Shown one piece after another: positions 1-8,963 of a stretch of 64,000 bases of DNA. The DNA is from a virus: the IMG/VR virus record IMGVR_UViG_3300032235_000428, positions 1 through 64,000 of that record. One strand, given 5' to 3'. The position numbers and the translations under genes are program-made. The notes below the pieces were generated by a model, which saw only the letters and a program-made list of their open reading frames with translations, was not told the origin of the DNA and made no database searches. The stretch's first letter is position 1; the number at the start of each line of letters is the position of its first letter.

Positions 1-288
1 AAGTTCAGGAGTATTGTAAGCAACTTTACAATCAACCAATTCATTCTTCAGATCATTACCAAACATCTGGAGTTGTTGCCAGAAGTTTACAAGAGGTTCA
101 TAAAGGTCATTTACCCAAATATCTAGATTGGGATACTTCTTTGTGATGTAAATTGCAACACTCCCACCACCAATAAATGGTTCTCGATACTCATCATAGT
201 TGCGAAGATCGGGGAAATAAGGTCCCATCTTTTCACAAGCACGGGATTTACCACCAGGATAACGAAGAGGAGTTTTAAGAGATTTCAT
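1..288 (-). CDS. dam: Dam-type (D12 class) DNA adenine-N6 methyltransferase, N-terminal part
   Basis: The first 96 codons are present; the gene runs off the left edge of the window. The N-terminus reads LRYPGGKSRACEKMGPYFP, followed by EPFIGGGSVAI. This is the AdoMet-binding signature (PGGK plus PFxGGGS) of D12-class adenine methyltransferases such as Dam. The catalytic DPPY motif would lie outside the window. The start ATG at 288 overlaps the TGA of the preceding gene (ATGA), so translation is probably coupled. By family it would methylate adenine in a short site, GATC in Dam itself; the target here is inferred only. Phage Dam enzymes commonly protect phage DNA from host or phage-encoded nucleases, and the gene just upstream looks like a PD-(D/E)XK nuclease. 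Confidence 0.88.
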   Translation of the reverse strand, partial: MKSLKTPLRYPGGKSRACEKMGPYFPDLRNYDEYREPFIGGGSVAIYITKKYPNLDIWVNDLYEPLVNFWQQLQMFGNDLKNELVDCKVAYNTPEL

Positions 289-812
289 CAAAGGATCTCC
301 ATAAGGTTATCAAGAATTTCTGAAGAACTAATATTCTTTTTAGCGGGAGTTATATTTTGTGCAAGGATTGTGAAATCACCAGGAAGAAGTTTAATTTTTG
401 CTACTGGCGATTTAGGAGTAAAATAAATACGCTTCTCTACAGTTTTCCAATCAGTTAAACCAAGTGTCATACTAAAGGTATCGACAAGAAACATGTAGTC
501 AAATGTTTTATCTACGACCTTAGTTTCTCCACGGAAGTTTTTAAGATCAATTGCTCCAGTGGAACCATTTTTGTTAAACAATTTCAATTTACCTTTCATC
601 TCATAAAGTTCATTATTAGAGGAAACGAAATCTACACCATCTCGATGATCACCGACATATTCAAATTGACCATTACTCCACTTTGCAAAAGATTTCTCTT
701 GTAACCAAGTTCTAAGAGTTTTAAAGGCATTAGATTTCATTTGGGTTGTATTTGTTGCATTTACACAACCAAAGAATTCTTCAAGATTGATTTTAGAAAG
801 ATCAAATTTCAT
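288..812 (-). CDS. Putative PD-(D/E)XK nuclease-like protein, possible restriction partner of the Dam gene
   Basis: A 174-residue protein with no match that I recognise to gp62, the clamp-loader small subunit expected after gp44. Residues 58-73 hold DGVD, then ten residues on the triplet E71-M-K73. This is the D-x(n)-ExK arrangement of PD-(D/E)XK nucleases. A hydrophobic strand with a nearby Asp (FDYMFLVDT, about 104-112) follows, as in type II restriction enzymes. The N-terminal 45 residues look helical. The start ATG overlaps the gp44 stop, and its own TGA overlaps the start of the Dam-type methylase, so all three are translationally linked. A restriction-modification-like pair is an inference from motif and context. 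It could instead be a nuclease-fold accessory protein. Confidence 0.5.
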   Translation of the reverse strand: MKFDLSKINLEEFFGCVNATNTTQMKSNAFKTLRTWLQEKSFAKWSNGQFEYVGDHRDGVDFVSSNNELYEMKGKLKLFNKNGSTGAIDLKNFRGETKVVDKTFDYMFLVDTFSMTLGLTDWKTVEKRIYFTPKSPVAKIKLLPGDFTILAQNITPAKKNISSSEILDNLMEIL

Positions 813-1756
813 TTAAATTCACACTCACACATAATTTCAGTTAACGCCGCCAGAAGATTAATTTCTTGATCGGCAACAAAGGCAATCTGATACTGGTACT
901 TAGCAATAATAAGCACAGCAGCAGGAATAGAAGATGGAACCACAGTCCCATAAAGTGCATCATAAACCCTACGAAGAATGATACTACTATCATTATCAAG
1001 ATTAGATACAACCCATTTACGTACTTCAGTGAAGTTCTTTTCCTTAAGATTTTTAATAAGGTCATCAATCTTCACATCACTAAACGTTGCAAGAATAGCG
1101 GAATCAATTTTACCGCTAGATGAATATCTTTGGCATTCATTTAACACTCGCCTCCAATCTGGAAAGTGTTTATTGATAAGTTCCGCAAGTACTTTTTGAT
1201 CGAACTCGATGTGTTCTTCATCCAAGATGTTTTGCAGACGCTTGAAGAAGGATCCTGCCAATGATGCTTTTTCTTTCCCTTTGATTGCAAAATCAACAAC
1301 AGCACATCTTGAATGAAGCGGTTCGATGATTTTGTTTTTGTAGTTACAGGTGAAGATAAATCTACAGTTACCACTAAACTCCTCAGTAAACGCCCGTAAG
1401 AGGAGTTGTACGTCTGTTGTCGTGTTATCTGCCTCATCAATAATGATGACTTTGTGTTTAGCAGTTGACATAAGTGAGACGGTCGAAGCAAAGTTTTTCG
1501 CAGTGTTTCGGACAGTATCAAGGAATCTACCTTCGTCGGATCCATTAATGACATAAACATCTACTCCCAGTTCAGTACATAGTGCTTTTGCAACTGTGGT
1601 TTTACCACAACCAGCAGGACCACAAAGAAGCAAATTTGGCACTTCGCCTTTATTTAGAAAATCGATAAAGGTTTTTTTAATGCCATCTGGGAGAATACAA
1701 TCTTCAATTGTTTTGGGTCGATACTTCTCAACCCACAAAAATTCATCACGACTCAT
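809..1756 (-). CDS. gp44: gp44 clamp-loader ATPase large subunit
   Basis: A 315-residue AAA+ protein, close to T4 gp44 (319 residues). It carries WVEKYRPKTIEDCI at the N-terminus, a Walker A GPAGCGKT at residues 46-53, a Walker B VIIIDEAD at 103-110 and the SRC motif (149-151) that supplies the arginine finger in clamp loaders. With gp62 it uses ATP to open and load the gp45 sliding clamp at primer-template junctions. The gene lies just downstream of gp45 and of one conserved phage gene. Its last codons overlap the start of a nuclease-like ORF, where other T4-like phages carry gp62. gp62 may lie beyond the window edge. The start ATG at 1756 sits six bases after the neighbouring stop. Confidence 0.97.
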   Translation of the reverse strand: MSRDEFLWVEKYRPKTIEDCILPDGIKKTFIDFLNKGEVPNLLLCGPAGCGKTTVAKALCTELGVDVYVINGSDEGRFLDTVRNTAKNFASTVSLMSTAKHKVIIIDEADNTTTDVQLLLRAFTEEFSGNCRFIFTCNYKNKIIEPLHSRCAVVDFAIKGKEKASLAGSFFKRLQNILDEEHIEFDQKVLAELINKHFPDWRRVLNECQRYSSSGKIDSAILATFSDVKIDDLIKNLKEKNFTEVRKWVVSNLDNDSSIILRRVYDALYGTVVPSSIPAAVLIIAKYQYQIAFVADQEINLLAALTEIMCECEFK

Positions 1757-1762
1757 AATTTT

Positions 1763-2275
1763 TTATACCCAATTAGGTTTTCGTTCTGGCATACGAAGAT
1801 AATTAGATGCAACCCAAGGTTTGGATGCGATATACATCTTGTAAGCAGTAAAAGTGTCAATGCTTGTGTCAAGTTTATACTCATCTGGCATAGCACGAGC
1901 AAATGGTGTTATCTCAACAATCTTCCCCCTAGGAAACAAATAGAAAGCATCCACAAGTGTCTTATAGCAGGAATGCGTTTTATTATATCGCAAAGAGTAC
2001 TCATCACACAAGTTAAGACCATGTTTGATCAACCAATAAGCATTGTGAATACTCTCTAATGCCCATTTAGTACAGGGATGATTGCGAAAAGCACCTTTTT
2101 CAGTTTTGTATGGGGTGTTATCAGTTTTGTACAAAGGTCCATAACCATGACCCCATTTTTCCGATGCCACAATAGAAAGCATTTGACAACATTCTAGTGG
2201 CATTTTGACAACATGCTTATCTGGGAGACAGATAGCACTTTCTGCTGGCCAAGGAGAGGTTGCGAAGATGTTCAT
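1763..2275 (-). CDS. Conserved phage protein of unknown function
   Basis: A 170-residue protein. The pattern MNIFATSPWPAE, CLPDKHVVKMPLECCQ, HPCTKWA and TPFARAMPDEYK is one I recognise as a widely distributed phage protein family whose biochemical role is not established. Members typically share the DKHVxKM and HPCTxW blocks and are near this length. Some annotation pipelines give it DNA-repair names; I see no catalytic signature that supports one. The ATG at 2275 overlaps the gp45 stop (ATGA), so it is co-translated with the clamp and sits between gp45 and gp44. That placement suggests a role around replication, but this is inference. Confidence 0.85.
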   Translation of the reverse strand: MNIFATSPWPAESAICLPDKHVVKMPLECCQMLSIVASEKWGHGYGPLYKTDNTPYKTEKGAFRNHPCTKWALESIHNAYWLIKHGLNLCDEYSLRYNKTHSCYKTLVDAFYLFPRGKIVEITPFARAMPDEYKLDTSIDTFTAYKMYIASKPWVASNYLRMPERKPNWV

Positions 2276-2937
2276 CCAAAAGTCGAGTCGGGTTCCAGAG
2301 CAATATAATAGGTCACATTAAACCCAGTATTTTTAAATTGTGACAAAAGTTTAGATGAAATTACAACTTCATAGTTTCCAGGAATAATCTTGATATTTTC
2401 TACCTTGAAATTGAAGGTAAATTCCTCATTAGTTTCACCCACAATGATAGAGAAATCATTGGAAGTGTCATTTTTCTTGTCCCGAACTACAAGTTTAACT
2501 ACACCTGCCTCACCAACTACAGACAAATCAGGAAGTTGATAAATTGATGCTGCTTTGAGCAGTTTGTCTAATTCTTTAGTATCGAGTAAAAAGCAAACAT
2601 CTTCAGTTGGCAAATTAATCGATTTATCTGGAGGACTAATGATTACATTTGGATCGGCAAAGAAGTATTTCGACCTGATTTTACCCTCTTTAATAACAAC
2701 ATAATTGTTATTTTGAAAATCCAGTTCCGCATTTTGATGTAGGTTAAGACCATTCAAAAATTGGTTCAGATCATAGATTGCAAAATCTTTAGGGATATCC
2801 TCTTCAATTACTGCTTCAGCAAGAATATTTTTCATTACTGAAATAGTGCGAAGAGAGTTACCCTGTTTAAATAAAATAGATTGATTAATAGAAGAAAAAT
2901 TCTTCAGAAGAGTAATCGTTTTGTCAGAGAGTTTCAT
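2272..2937 (-). CDS. gp45: gp45 sliding clamp (DNA polymerase processivity factor)
   Basis: A 221-residue protein, close to T4 gp45 (228). It begins MKLSDKTITLLKNFSSINQS and has the alternating beta-strand/helix pattern of the two-domain clamp, including LAEAVIEEDIPKDFAIYDLN near residue 40. The trimeric ring tethers gp43 polymerase to DNA. In T4 it also acts as the mobile activator of late transcription through gp33 and gp55. The position upstream of gp44 is the T4 order, with one conserved ORF interposed. It starts 5 bases after the stop of the DUF3310-like gene. Confidence 0.95.
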   Translation of the reverse strand: MKLSDKTITLLKNFSSINQSILFKQGNSLRTISVMKNILAEAVIEEDIPKDFAIYDLNQFLNGLNLHQNAELDFQNNNYVVIKEGKIRSKYFFADPNVIISPPDKSINLPTEDVCFLLDTKELDKLLKAASIYQLPDLSVVGEAGVVKLVVRDKKNDTSNDFSIIVGETNEEFTFNFKVENIKIIPGNYEVVISSKLLSQFKNTGFNVTYYIALEPDSTFG

Positions 2938-3400: not shown

Positions 3401-4533
3401 CAGAACGGAGCAGGTTGGTCAATGTTCGGAAGAACTTCATTTGTTACCGCAGTAGGCATTTCAAAATTAGCATCAATCTTATCATAAAGTTCCAAGAAAG
3501 ATTGCTTGGTTTCATCATCAAATCGGTTTACACAAACTTGAATTGCCTTTGCCTTGTCGTTGAAAATGCTGTAGGCACGAATGATGTGGACCAGTCGGCG
3601 GGTGCTGATGATTTCCTCAATACCACCATCGTAGAAGGTCTTACGGATGATGTCTGCCCAATCTACCAGACGCTTACAGAAGTCACGATCCTCCACACCA
3701 AGGTCCAGAGCAATGCCCTCAAGGATCTTCTGCTCGGTGCTAGGAGCGGGATAGGACTGCTCAAAGGTCACAGGGAAACGCTCAAGGAACGCTTCGTTGA
3801 GCACATTGGTGCCGATGAAGCGACCGTCATCAGAACCCTTACCCTTGGTGTTTGCGGTGGCAAATACGTTGAATCCAGCAGCAGGTTTGACGAACTTTCC
3901 AATTTTCTTGAGGAAGACACCCTTACCTTCCAGAACAGATTGCAGGCACAGAATCTTGTTAGAAGCAAGGTCAATCTCATCCAGCAGAAGAATTGCACCA
4001 CGCTCCAGTGCCTCAATCACAGGACCATTGTGCCAAACAGTCTCACCATTCACAAGACGGAAACCACCGATAAGGTCATCTTCATCGGTCTCAATCGTGA
4101 TATTGACACGAATCATTTCACGCTTAAGTTGAGCACACGCTTGCTCCACACTGAACGTTTTACCGTTACCCGAAAGACCCGTAATGAACGTAGGATAGAA
4201 AAGATTGGACTGAATAATTTTTTTAATATCGTTAAAATTACCAAACTTGACGAAGGTATCATCTTTATCAGGAATCAGATTTTGTTCAACAACAGGAAGG
4301 ACTGCAGGAGCACTGTAGGAACGCTCAATTTCGTCAACACGTTCTTGAGTTACTTCCAGATTCCAACGACCACGATCAGTTTTAAATGGTTCCAAACGAC
4401 GAGTTACAGTTTGGTAATTCAGACTACGAGAAGCACAAAAACCACGAATATCCCCAGAACTAATTTCAGTTCCGTAAAGATTTTTAAGATCAGAAATGAG
4501 TTGTTCGTCAGTCACAGAATTTTTGCGGGGCAT
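3400..4533 (-). CDS. cobS: CobS-like MoxR-type AAA+ ATPase
   Basis: A 377-residue AAA+ ATPase. The N-terminal ~75 residues form a small helical domain. Then follow Walker A GLSGNGKT (119-126), Walker B ILLLDEID (181-188), a sensor-like FATANTKGKG near 225-235 and an arginine-rich STRRLVHIIRAY near 320. This is the cyanophage protein usually named CobS after the cobaltochelatase ATPase subunit. More broadly it belongs to the MoxR/CbbQ group, which remodels partner proteins that carry a VWA domain. The gene encoding a VWA-domain protein with an HExxH protease motif lies upstream in the same direction (4819-6996), which supports an ATPase/VWA pair. No CobN-like chelatase subunit is in the window, so a cobalamin role is unproven. 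Confidence 0.9.
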   Translation of the reverse strand: MPRKNSVTDEQLISDLKNLYGTEISSGDIRGFCASRSLNYQTVTRRLEPFKTDRGRWNLEVTQERVDEIERSYSAPAVLPVVEQNLIPDKDDTFVKFGNFNDIKKIIQSNLFYPTFITGLSGNGKTFSVEQACAQLKREMIRVNITIETDEDDLIGGFRLVNGETVWHNGPVIEALERGAILLLDEIDLASNKILCLQSVLEGKGVFLKKIGKFVKPAAGFNVFATANTKGKGSDDGRFIGTNVLNEAFLERFPVTFEQSYPAPSTEQKILEGIALDLGVEDRDFCKRLVDWADIIRKTFYDGGIEEIISTRRLVHIIRAYSIFNDKAKAIQVCVNRFDDETKQSFLELYDKIDANFEMPTAVTNEVLPNIDQPAPF

Positions 4534-4568
4534 AATAAAAATTAGTTTTGGTTCGTTTCAACAAAGTA

Positions 4569-4819: not shown

Positions 4820-6996
4820 TATGAAATCAAACTCACAAATTCATTAAGAATTTTTTTATTAGTTTTTTTAGATGACAACGATTTTGTGAAGGCACTTTTA
4901 ATTTGCCCTTTCGTTGCATCTTCTTCAACTTTAAAATCAGTAGAAGTATTTAACGAGTTAGAAGAAAGACCGAAATATGTACTATATCCAGAGGTTTTAA
5001 TTGCAAAATTCCTATTCTTTTTCCATTCACCCATCAACCTAGAGTATTCAGAAGTATTACTATACCCAGTGTAACGACGAATAAAGTTACCAGCATCCCT
5101 ACCTTGAATAATACGAATTCCAATGAAGTTAACATCCTCAAATTTATCTCGCAAGTTGCGAAGAAGAATATCAGTAAAATCAGAACTGTCATTAGTCATT
5201 TTATAAACTGTTCCGATTTTCCTATCCCTAAGAATAGTATTAGATCCAATAGAATTTAGACCAATATAAGGATTGGATTCTGAATGCCTTTTGAATTGCA
5301 TGTGGAATTTAGACCATTCACTTTCACCGTCAGTCAAAATAACACATTGAACTTTCTGAAGTTTATTTTCAAATTTAAACTTTGGAAGAATTTGGTGCAA
5401 AGCAATCAAAGTTTGGTTGAGAGGTGTCCCAGACAACATCAATCCATACGGGATACTGTAATTGTTTGAATGATTATAATAGTAATTATTCCTATGAAGA
5501 TTATTAGTTACCCTGAAAATATTCTTCATCTGATGTTCCAAAACTGAAGAACTAACCTTACTAGTAAGAATATTGAGGAGAGAAAAACTCTCATCAACAA
5601 AAACCAGTCCCTCTTTTTTATCATAGTGAGGTTCAGGAATTATTGCTTTACCCTTACTATCATAGTTCACACGTCGCCATTCATTAGTAAATGCATAAAC
5701 TTCAAAAGGAATATTAACTTTTTTACAAAACCAAATAAGATTGTAAAGTTGCTTAACTGTGTCAAAAAGTACATCAGACATTGATCCAGACCAATCAATG
5801 ATAAACACCAATCCATGGTTTTTACCATTGGCAAGTGTAGTCACTTTTTTAAACAAGTCTTCATTATACTTATAGGTATGAAGTTTTGAACAATCCAAAA
5901 TTCCAGTTCGAGCAGTAGTTGCCCTAGCGTAACTATCCGCAGATTTGCGACACTCAAACTCCTTAACGAGATAATTAACTTCCTTTTGAGCAGATCGCTT
6001 AAAGTCCAGATACTGCCTATCAATTAGATCAAATGCATCAGTTTTACCATCAACTTCAATCGTTGATTTCCAACTTTTATCACATTCCTCATGAATTTTT
6101 TTGTTGTCAATAATAACAGTATTGAGATTTAATTTCGGAAGTTCAACATACACACTTTCATACTTATTATTATCAACAAGTTCTTTGATAGATTCTTCAA
6201 GAGCATCAGCAGTTTTCACATCAATACCAGAAGTAAATCCACCAGTATTAGATTGACTTTGAGAATCTAGAGTATCGTCAGAATCATTTTGATCTGCTTG
6301 AGTTTCTGTAGAAGACTGCTGATCATTAGATTGAGAATTGGTTGCATTATTGTCACCTTCCTCACTTTGCTGATCAGAACTTTCATCATTATTACCAGGA
6401 CTATTTGGAGTGTGAGAGTTTAGAGTTTCAACTTTTTGCTCCATTTCCTGTTTTTCTTTACAATATTCGTAAAGCAATTCAGACGCAAGAAGAACATCAG
6501 CGAATGTTTCAGTTTGTCCTACAATATCAACAATTTCCTTCTCCTTTTCATCAAAGTTAACTTTGAGGAAGTTGCCAATTTTATAGTGAAGATTTACTTT
6601 ATCTGCAAGATTATACTCATCAACATCTTCACCATCAATAGAAAAGAAGTCTTGATCATTCAGTTCATTATACCCATTGTAAAACGTTTTCCTAAGACCG
6701 TCATAGCGACGTTTCATGAGTTTTTCAACCCGAACATCTTCAACAACATTTACAATTTGTTTGGGAACCTTACAAGTATCCCACCAGTCATCATCTGGAG
6801 TGAAGAGTGCATGACCAACTTCATGCCCAACAAGCATGTCGTAAATTGCGTTAGATGCCTTCTCCCACATTGGTAGGGTAAGAACCCGTGTATGGACATT
6901 AAAGCAGGCAGTTTGAACCTTTTTATGCTCAACCACAAGATCCTCTGTGGCGAGAAGACGAGCGAGATTGCCTTTTACTTCGTGGTTGATGGACAT
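4819..6996 (-). CDS. Metalloprotease-like (HExxH) plus VWA-domain protein, CobT-like partner of the AAA+ ATPase
   Basis: A 725-residue protein with two recognisable parts. Residues 57-63 read GHEVGHA, a zinc-metalloprotease HExxH (H58, E59, H62), followed by VVEDVRVEKLMKRRY about 22 residues later, which could supply the third zinc ligand. Residues 190-255 are a Ser/Asn/Gln/Asp-rich low-complexity linker. Residues 395-410 read GLVFIIDWSGSMSD, a complete MIDAS (DxSxS) of a von Willebrand A domain like that of CobT/ChlD-type partners of MoxR ATPases. Cyanophage copies are often labelled peptidase or CobT. The CobS-like ATPase is encoded about 300 bases downstream. ATP-driven control of a protease is the simplest reading; the substrate is unknown. 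The start overlaps a 66-residue ORF by 22 bases and has no clear Shine-Dalgarno. Confidence 0.85.
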   Translation of the reverse strand: MSINHEVKGNLARLLATEDLVVEHKKVQTACFNVHTRVLTLPMWEKASNAIYDMLVGHEVGHALFTPDDDWWDTCKVPKQIVNVVEDVRVEKLMKRRYDGLRKTFYNGYNELNDQDFFSIDGEDVDEYNLADKVNLHYKIGNFLKVNFDEKEKEIVDIVGQTETFADVLLASELLYEYCKEKQEMEQKVETLNSHTPNSPGNNDESSDQQSEEGDNNATNSQSNDQQSSTETQADQNDSDDTLDSQSQSNTGGFTSGIDVKTADALEESIKELVDNNKYESVYVELPKLNLNTVIIDNKKIHEECDKSWKSTIEVDGKTDAFDLIDRQYLDFKRSAQKEVNYLVKEFECRKSADSYARATTARTGILDCSKLHTYKYNEDLFKKVTTLANGKNHGLVFIIDWSGSMSDVLFDTVKQLYNLIWFCKKVNIPFEVYAFTNEWRRVNYDSKGKAIIPEPHYDKKEGLVFVDESFSLLNILTSKVSSSVLEHQMKNIFRVTNNLHRNNYYYNHSNNYSIPYGLMLSGTPLNQTLIALHQILPKFKFENKLQKVQCVILTDGESEWSKFHMQFKRHSESNPYIGLNSIGSNTILRDRKIGTVYKMTNDSSDFTDILLRNLRDKFEDVNFIGIRIIQGRDAGNFIRRYTGYSNTSEYSRLMGEWKKNRNFAIKTSGYSTYFGLSSNSLNTSTDFKVEEDATKGQIKSAFTKSLSSKKTNKKILNEFVSLIS

Positions 6997-7175
6997 TGGA
7001 TTTCGTTTGAACTGACACCAGTATACGAAAAAGGGTCGCCTTGCTGACGACCCATGTGACGCTTTTTAAATTGTCTCAGTCGCGCCTTTGCTTGCCTGAG
7101 TGCTTGGGGTTTTTTCTTTCCCTTGTCATTTCTTTTGTGGGGATTTCGACCACTTTCCCATATTTTGTGTCTCAT
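6975..7175 (-). CDS. Small highly basic hypothetical protein
   Basis: A 66-residue ORF, very rich in Lys/Arg (MRHKIWESGRNPHKR, then KGKKKPQALRQAKARLRQFKKR), with one predicted helix at about residues 20-40. A Shine-Dalgarno-like AAGGAA stands close before the ATG at 7175. It overlaps the start of the HExxH/VWA gene by 22 bases and could couple its translation. Such a charged peptide might bind nucleic acid, but I recognise no family. Confidence 0.5.
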   Translation of the reverse strand: MRHKIWESGRNPHKRNDKGKKKPQALRQAKARLRQFKKRHMGRQQGDPFSYTGVSSNEIQCPSTTK

Positions 7176-7250
7176 TTTCCTTAGTGAGTTAATTGAACTA
7201 GTAAATCACAGTATCAGAAAATCGGAGTAACCTGCTTTGGAGTGTGCCAC

Positions 7251-8963
7251 TTAAACAGCCATCCTACTGAAACTTTTAATTTTTTCGAATTTAACAACAT
7301 TTGTAAATTTGTCTCTCATACCCTCTTTATGGGATATAACAAAAATGTTAGCATCTTTGATTATAAATCTAATGATTTTTAAGAAATCATCAGTTCCAAA
7401 TCCATCGAGAGAAGAATCAAAAGTCTCATCAAAAATAATAAGATTACAATTAAGAGAATTTTTTATTTTTGCAATTTCTCTCCAGGTAAAAAGAAGAGCG
7501 AGGTCAATTCTCATTTTTTCACCTTCACTAAAAGAACTATAAGAAAAGTCTTCGTGAATGGGGGATTTAATAGATTCGTTAAACTCTTCGTCTAATGAGA
7601 AGTTGATATAGAAATCCATCATCTGTAGATATCTATTAACTTGCTGATTAATTAGAGGTAGATATTTTTTGATGATCTTGGTTTTAACTCCCCCATCTTT
7701 CAATAAACCATAGACAAAATCATAATAATTAATTTGTTCTTTTTTAGTTTCTGCCTCCTTAAAAGTTACTTCAAGTTGTTCCCTAAATTCTTCTAATTTC
7801 TCATGTTCAGTATTTCTATTCTTAAGTTGATTGGTAACAGTTTGAATTTCGTGTTCAAGTTCTCCGATTTGTTTTTGGCATCCAGAGATCCTAGTATTGT
7901 TTTGAGAAATTTCATTTGCGAGTTTAGTAACCTCTTTAGAAAGGGCGATAAATTGACGCTCTCGCTCTTCTTCTTCTTTAATTGTTTCTTCTAGTTCTTT
8001 ATAACCAGATTGCAACTCCTTTGCTTTATTTTGAGCGTCTACTATTCTATTTAATCTAAACTCTTCTTCTATATTTTGCGTACAGGTTGGGCAAACCGTA
8101 TTCTCAGTAAAAAACTTATGCTCCTCGGTAATGGTTGTTACTTTCTGAGAGATTTTTCCTTTAAGGTTTCCTAACTTACGTAGTTTTTCAGTTGCTCCAG
8201 TATAAGTTTTTAAATGCTCTTGCAGTTGTTCAATCTCATGATTTTTACTCTCATTCACACCAATTAAAGTATTTTCTTCATCAACAAGTTGTTGTATTTT
8301 TTCCTGCTTATTTTTAATATTATCTTTTCCTCGATTTTCTAACTCTTCGATAAAGTTTTTCTGCATTTTAACTTTATCTTCTAAAGATTCTTGCTTTAAA
8401 TTAAAAGTTTTGATAGTATCTTTAGTTTCCCTAATCTTTTCCTTTAAGACAGAATTCATAGAAGAAAATATTTTAATATCAAGCAAATCTTCAATTACTT
8501 CTCTACGATTAGATGTAGACAATTGCATAAATGGAACAAAACTGCTACTTCCAAGAATAACGATTTGTGTAAATGATTTGTAATTCATTTTCAAAACATT
8601 TTGCTCAAACCATTTTTGCTGATCGATTGCAGCAGCATCCTGATTTAAAAGAGTTCCATTTCTATAAATTTCAAAAATAGATGGTTTAATTCCACGTACA
8701 ACTTTCCAATTATTAGTACCTACAGTAAATTCAACTTCAACCAGACAATCCTTTTCATTAATGGAATTAACTAATTGTGGTTTATTAACACCACGAAAAG
8801 ACTTACCAAAAAGAGAAAAGGTAAGAGCATCTAACATGGTACTTTTCCCAGCACCATTATTACCAATAATTAAAGTAGTATCTGAATTAGTAAATAAAAT
8901 TTCAGTAAACTGATTGCCAGTGCTTAAAAAATTCTTATATCTAATCTTCTCAAATAAAATCAT
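7251..8963 (-). CDS. gp46: gp46 recombination endonuclease subunit (SbcC/Rad50-like)
   Basis: A 570-residue SMC-like ATPase, near T4 gp46 (560). Walker A GNNGAGKST lies at residues 34-42. A long coiled coil (about 170-450) is interrupted by the zinc hook CPTC at 291-294. The C-terminal signature FSEGEKMRIDLAL and Walker B LIIFDETFDSSLD follow. With gp47 it forms the Mre11/Rad50-type nuclease that resects DNA ends for recombination-dependent replication and degrades host DNA. Its start at 8963 overlaps the end of the DUF3110-like gene by 14 bases. A 75-base gap without a gene follows its stop. Confidence 0.97.
   Translation of the reverse strand: MILFEKIRYKNFLSTGNQFTEILFTNSDTTLIIGNNGAGKSTMLDALTFSLFGKSFRGVNKPQLVNSINEKDCLVEVEFTVGTNNWKVVRGIKPSIFEIYRNGTLLNQDAAAIDQQKWFEQNVLKMNYKSFTQIVILGSSSFVPFMQLSTSNRREVIEDLLDIKIFSSMNSVLKEKIRETKDTIKTFNLKQESLEDKVKMQKNFIEELENRGKDNIKNKQEKIQQLVDEENTLIGVNESKNHEIEQLQEHLKTYTGATEKLRKLGNLKGKISQKVTTITEEHKFFTENTVCPTCTQNIEEEFRLNRIVDAQNKAKELQSGYKELEETIKEEEERERQFIALSKEVTKLANEISQNNTRISGCQKQIGELEHEIQTVTNQLKNRNTEHEKLEEFREQLEVTFKEAETKKEQINYYDFVYGLLKDGGVKTKIIKKYLPLINQQVNRYLQMMDFYINFSLDEEFNESIKSPIHEDFSYSSFSEGEKMRIDLALLFTWREIAKIKNSLNCNLIIFDETFDSSLDGFGTDDFLKIIRFIIKDANIFVISHKEGMRDKFTNVVKFEKIKSFSRMAV

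Follow-up and report, generated by a model that had tools for sequence, protein, structure and literature searches.

A predicted PD-(D/E)XK nuclease gene coupled to a Dam-like methylase gene between gp44 and gp62 of uncultured cyanomyoviruses

At the left end of an uncultured viral contig, the gene of the clamp-loader ATPase gp44 is followed by a small gene of 174 codons and by the beginning of a DNA methyltransferase gene, which raises the question of what the small protein is and whether the two genes act together. The viral record is linear and comprises 102,460 bp; the stretch analysed here (the window) covers its positions 1–64000, 64,000 nucleotides in all, and position 1 is the end of the contig.

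The gp44–gp62 interval

All three genes lie on the minus strand, in the order that a previous sequence-only reading had given: gp44, a nuclease-like gene and a D12-class methylase. The product of gp44 (809..1756, 315 aa) matched phrog_168 (E 7e-134) and the Pfam Gp44_lid family (60 bits), and is ~82% identical to gp44 of cultured Synechococcus myoviruses. The same minus-strand operon carries a denV-type pyrimidine dimer glycosylase (1763..2275; PF03013, 60 bits) and the gp45 sliding clamp (2272..2937; phrog_223, E 8e-86; PF09116). Its order (VWA/peptidase, CobS-like AAA, DUF3310, gp45, denV, gp44) matches that of Kyanoviridae such as S-SM2 and, judging from this order together with the gp44 identity, the source is a cyanomyovirus fragment.

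The 174-aa gene (288..812) overlaps the gp44 stop by 4 nt in the sequence ATGA (809..812). An ATGA overlap had been described for both junctions; it is present at the first, while the second reads TGATG (286..290), where the TGA stop of the small gene and the ATG start of the methylase share a single nucleotide. The methylase gene itself (1..288) is cut by the contig end after its N-terminal 96 codons.

The pair had been thought to occupy the place of gp62, with the proviso that gp62 might lie just outside the window, and it was the proviso that proved correct. The IMG/VR contig L002, which shares 99.69% identity with the window across 6,812 bp, extends beyond the left edge of the window and has the order gp45, denV, gp44, 174-aa gene, Dam, gp62, regA, hsp20, gp43. 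On this contig, gp44 (5057–6004), the 174-aa gene (6001–6525) and the full Dam gene of 288 aa (6522–7391) precede gp62 (7345–7725), whose beginning overlaps the 3′ end of Dam, so the pair does not replace gp62. In all but a few relatives of sufficient extent, gp62 was located 3′ of Dam or of the corresponding slot. An HMM search of the record itself for gp62 (PF16790) gave no match, and neither did its control; a comparison of the 174-aa protein with PHROG gave no gp62-like match.

The assumption that gp62 directly follows gp44 in cyanophages does not describe the usual case either, since the interval is variable in S-SM2, S9220M01, Bellamy, P-SSM2 and ACG-2014d. Cultured Bellamy, P-SSM2 and ACG-2014d carry a Dam-like gene within it, and S-SM2 and S9220M01 carry a DruA-family “putative cytoplasmic protein” (in S9220M01 by annotation and length only). 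On this reading of gene content, the general rule is a variable slot between gp44 and gp62 rather than a nuclease–Dam pair.

Several other occupants of the slot were observed. The “putative cytoplasmic protein” belongs to DruA (Druantia, PF14236) with a score above the Pfam cut-off; its genes lie at L059:6539-7597, L063:1568-2638, L068:2278-3375 and S-SM2 SSM2_144 (L083:6318-7376), and relatives were present in 31 phage records, including Pelagibacter phage HTVC008M. ORFs read from the sequence as LAGLIDADG-like or HNH-like homing endonucleases lie at L358:2598-2996, L376:2598-2996, L016:2953-3690 and L072:4430-4798. In many relatives, a conserved gene of ~95 aa (MNVKLxRxxSGEDxI...; L007:5683-5979 and equivalents) stands directly before the nuclease or Dam, and its product matched no Pfam family above the cut-off.

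The methylase and the predicted nuclease

The assignment of the methylase to the D12 class of N6-adenine methyltransferases (Dam-like) was confirmed on the 96-codon fragment (PF02086, 47 bits against a cut-off of 22) and on the full-length L002 protein (94 bits against the same cut-off; PADLOC Type II MTase, E 9e-61). Its relatives in the PDB include 7m6b (E 3e-42) and DpnM (2dpm, E 3e-10). The DPPY motif was to be looked for to the left of position 1, where the record ends; the L002 protein supplies it as LDPPYD, together with FxGGG. The curated Dam subfamily TIGR00571 scored 88.1 bits, below its cut-off of 114.85, and GATC specificity was therefore not assumed.

We also looked for avoided target sites within the window. 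GATC was observed 215 times against 266 expected, and GATATC 19 times against 30. The strongest avoidance was that of CCGG (1 observed against 25 expected), which was rejected as a Dam target because it contains no adenine, and no avoided adenine-containing palindrome could be singled out as a target in the window. GCGC, GGCC, AGCT and CATG were also strongly avoided; the avoidance of these palindromes and of CCGG possibly reflects past host restriction.

The 174-aa protein itself matched no credible family in Pfam, PHROG, NCBIfam or PADLOC and no PDB sequence; its weak matches to a phrog_12420 “ligase” (E 0.015), YdcD (E 0.013) and a NOMO domain (E 0.09) appear to be chance matches. Still, with more than 160 relatives in IMG/VR and a dN/dS of about 0.12, the gene is, on sequence evidence, a real one rather than a chance ORF. 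The patterns used found no relative among 84,980 bacterial and archaeal species genomes, and therefore no chromosomal R-M parent. Among cultured phage records, where the family itself was not found, the sole match was S-SCSM1 gp116 (30% identity, E 0.04), which heads a separate family. Profile comparison nevertheless joined the two families with a probability of 97% across 136 columns, the D and ExK residues being aligned. A third and more distant family (family T), with S-SM1 SSM1_072 as a member, carries G-x-D...ExK, and the P-type and T-type profiles matched at 97.5% (E 5e-12). Neither the S-SCSM1 gp116 gene nor the S-SM1 SSM1_072 gene adjoins Dam. A BLAST match resembling the 174-aa protein in L123 was discarded as chance, the translated piece not being nuclease-like. 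The gene at L394:1788-2330 is a mosaic, window-like in its N- and C-terminal parts and similar to the L321 subfamily in the middle; its sequence suggests an exchange of segments, which are perhaps specificity-determining.

Structure prediction with AlphaFold2 gave a pLDDT of 34 for the single sequence and required an alignment with the S-SCSM1 family, which raised the pLDDT to 91.2 (pTM 0.87). The model contains the secondary structure elements H28-44, E50-52, E62-64, E69-75, E88-94 and E106-111. The best Foldseek matches in the PDB were all restriction endonucleases (E 2e-4 to 3e-2, TM 0.3–0.5, probability 1.0): first Eco15I and NhoI of the BisI family and DpnI (E about 2e-4), then 3ndh and PvuII. 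The entry 3ndh, labelled by the tool only as a restriction endonuclease with substrate DNA, is taken by us to be ThaI. In the viral library, the best fold match was S-SM1 E3SI79 (TM 0.70), which is probably SSM1_072.

Residues invariant in the 57 sequences of the 174-aa and S-SCSM1 families include E39, G59, D61, F62, E71 and K73. Four of these are candidate catalytic residues, encoded on the minus strand by the codons at 698-696 (E39), 632-630 (D61), 602-600 (E71) and 596-594 (K73). The canonical PD-(D/E)XK site consists of a Glu in helix 1, an Asp and (D/E)xK (PMC11347163), and this pattern is complete in the 174-aa protein, with the predicted E in helix 1, D at strand 2 and ExK on strand 3. 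The nuclease call had been made from the motif DGVD...E-M-K alone (D61 and E71-M-K73); because the predicted fold, the restriction enzyme matches and the complete active-site pattern agree, we consider the model-based assignment to the PD-(D/E)XK superfamily almost certain.

Linkage of nuclease and methylase genes

Whether homologues of the nuclease always stand next to Dam genes had been named as a check, and this holds for most of them, not for all. A D12 methylase directly adjoins 57 of the 71 distinct nuclease loci, lying directly 3′ in 54 and directly 5′ in 3; the latter three concern a different D12 subfamily at a different locus. A Dam-like gene lies within 3 kb of three further nuclease genes. 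The remaining 11 comprise one gene cut by a contig end, three on short contigs, four (L052, L054, L062, L232) with methylase-like genes of other classes, assigned by motif, within ~2.6 kb, and three (L059, L063, L068) that adjoin DruA on partial contigs containing no Dam.

Starting from the methylases instead, a nuclease of the superfamily lies directly upstream of 28 among 79 close Dam genes; these nucleases come from at least six subfamilies and are spaced from a 2-nt gap to a 26-nt overlap. The other 51 have no adjoining nuclease, and the same is true of hundreds of cultured cyanophage records. A nuclease that is rarely far from a methylase, beside a methylase that may be solitary, is as expected if the nuclease is toxic alone. 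The representatives of the nuclease subfamilies found beside Dam are 12–58% identical to one another, while the Dam proteins are 87.5% identical between nuclease classes and 89.4% within them, with the NKCSFSGLTESSSFS region almost invariant.

The proposed special tie of the pair to the clamp-loader gene did not hold up. Direct coupling of gp44 to the nuclease occurs in only some relatives; in most, 150–1400 nt and other small genes intervene, and the nuclease–Dam coupling is kept where gp44 and the nuclease lie apart. The link between nuclease and DNA methylase, in turn, is lasting and extends beyond this locus. A different D12 subfamily, ~20% identical, pairs with the nuclease in L075–L078 and L272. 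Family T occurs at another locus, behind a ResIII/DEAD helicase and followed in L308 by an N6/N4 methyltransferase (PF01555) with a 4-nt overlap; in L301 a D12 methyltransferase lies 176 nt away. Purifying selection acts on both genes of the pair (dN/dS 0.115 and 0.124). In a comparison of distance matrices, the nuclease and Dam correlated with each other no better than either did with gp62.

Two further arrangements were noted on the way. The helicase followed by the family T nuclease is found at L308:2769-5331 and in S-SM1 (NC_015282 42275-44034; L315), and with the overlapping methylase added in L308 the set looks, from its sequence, like a split helicase–nuclease–methylase set. L052 carries, besides its nuclease gene, an unrelated small ORF of nuclease-like character (GDLIVDGRKSEVKTA; L052:3193-3729), which matched no Pfam family and is directly followed by a methylase-like ORF with an NPPF motif (3729-4538); from their sequences, these two perhaps represent another phage R-M-like pair.

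Possible functions and known systems

From the gene order, conservation, methylase family and persistent linkage, and from the strongly predicted nuclease fold and active site, we infer that the pair is rather likely a virus-encoded type II R-M-like module placed in the gp44–gp62 slot, with cleavage, a shared site, a block by methylation and a biological target all belonging to the proposal. The main argument for such a function is the recurrence of one nuclease superfamily alongside methylases of three or more kinds. The Dam-like enzyme would mark the target-site adenines of replicating phage DNA, and the small nuclease would cut DNA that lacks the mark. Co-transcription with replisome genes and stop–start coupling would deliver the nuclease and its antidote together at the onset of phage DNA synthesis. 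The target may be the host chromosome, for nucleotide supply and shut-off, for which the lack of denA, ndd and denB in cyanomyoviruses leaves room, and/or the DNA of co-infecting phages that lack the methylase, a target that the polymorphic, cassette-like turnover of the nuclease beside a constant Dam would suit.

Several observations weigh against an R-M-like module. The recognition region of Dam is nearly constant while the adjoining nuclease falls to 12–20% identity, which means that either very different nucleases keep a matching specificity or the sites are not shared. DruA, not Dam, stands beside the nuclease at L059, L063 and L068, and homing endonucleases also occur in the slot. The TM values of the Foldseek matches are moderate (0.4–0.5) and the closest folds are those of modification-dependent enzymes; the distance correlation of nuclease and Dam, too, is no better than that with gp62. 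A broader version, which we offer tentatively and with some doubt, would make the gp44–gp62 gap a slot for weapon and antidote, where divergent PD-(D/E)XK cassettes are swapped before a near-constant Dam; phages with nuclease and methylase would destroy unmarked DNA of the host or of co-infecting phages, and nuclease-less phages would keep Dam as immunity.

Among the other explanations, an unlikely one, though the best of them, is a homing or marker-exclusion endonuclease of the free-standing type, which would cut relatives lacking the nuclease near dam or the gp44–gp62 interval and spread by repair, like T4 SegF-type enzymes, with Dam as a mere neighbour. It would fit the polymorphic slot, the 51 of 79 Dam loci without the nuclease, the exchange of nuclease subfamilies beside a constant Dam, the LAGLIDADG-like or HNH-like ORFs read at the slot in L358, L359, L376, L016 and L072, and a weak fold match to the homing enzyme I-Ssp6803I (E 0.31). 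However, the fold matches to type II enzymes are much better, the nuclease is also found with unrelated methylases at other loci, and these could not all offer a single homing target. Neither the low dN/dS nor the long-term fixation of the gene alongside gp44 genes that are 55–85% identical suits such an element.

We find it improbable that the nuclease is modification-dependent, with a BisI- or DpnI-like logic, cutting host or rival DNA that is otherwise modified (e.g., m5C) while Dam serves a separate purpose. The strongest fold matches, Eco15I, NhoI and DpnI, are indeed modification-dependent enzymes, but the folds also resemble PvuII, a cutter of unmodified DNA, and the site is E-x-K, where BisI-family enzymes have Q-x-K (PMC11347163). 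A cutter dependent on m6A would destroy its own Dam-marked genome, and this explanation leaves the tight coupling to a methylase unaccounted for. Very improbable is a role in phage mismatch correction as a MutH-like repair nickase that acts together with Dam and the sliding clamp: one operon does hold gp44, gp45, Dam and a small nuclease, but no MutH/Sau3AI-type structure was among the fold matches listed, the adjacency to gp44 is not conserved, and a repair enzyme would not be expected to turn over so rapidly next to a constant Dam. Finally, that the 174-aa protein is a diverged gp62 or another replisome subunit, as its position after gp44 might suggest, is refuted by the clear separate gp62 after Dam in the operon of L002 and of nearly all relatives of sufficient extent, and the predicted alpha/beta nuclease fold argues against it as well.

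Viral R-M pairs, and Dam genes in the gp44–gp62 interval of cultured cyanophages, are already known. In the family libraries and the open-access literature searched, we found neither the nuclease superfamily nor its coupling to Dam in uncultured cyanomyoviruses nor the cassette-like exchange, and against these sources all three appear new; the superfamily is matched by no model in those libraries, and its genes now stand unnamed in viral metagenomes.

Compared with characterized enzymes, the 174-aa protein shares the core helix–strand topology and the E...D...ExK site with the PvuII, BisI (Eco15I, NhoI) and DpnI enzymes, without sequence homology or a family HMM match (Pfam, NCBIfam, PDB); it is phage-borne and predicted, and reads EMK where BisI has its Q-x-K. 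Chloroviruses carry adjacent endonuclease and methylase genes as well (CviAI, CviAII and others), and their R-M enzymes are used for host DNA degradation (PMC7019647); those enzymes are characterized, packaged and encoded by a eukaryotic virus, whereas here the pair is predicted from sequence in the replisome operon of a bacterial virus. The marseillevirus GATC R-M system likewise joins a viral restriction endonuclease to an adjacent N6A methyltransferase, and exclusion of co-infecting viruses was proposed for it (PMC7253447); it belongs to a different virus group, and the melbournevirus endonuclease resembles CviAI.

Cultured cyanomyoviruses have solitary D12 methylases of the Dam-like kind (Bellamy gp155, P-SSM2 dam, ACG-2014d) that agree with the present methylase in family and interval, and none of these phages has the 174-aa nuclease. 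An R-M-like pair would explain many such apparently solitary cyanophage Dam genes, as remnants or as immunity against nuclease-bearing relatives. T4 DenA and DenB offer a likeness in the proposed role, host DNA being cut and modified phage DNA spared, although the T4 modification is HMC and here would be adenine methylation. Cyanomyoviruses have no denA, ndd or denB and may degrade host DNA in an undescribed way (PMC2984593). Because no cultured phage record yielded the 174-aa family, the pair is not the general answer to this; for a subset of cyanomyoviruses, the co-transcribed nuclease and adenine methylase are a candidate route of host DNA degradation or, in an alternative role, of phage–phage exclusion.
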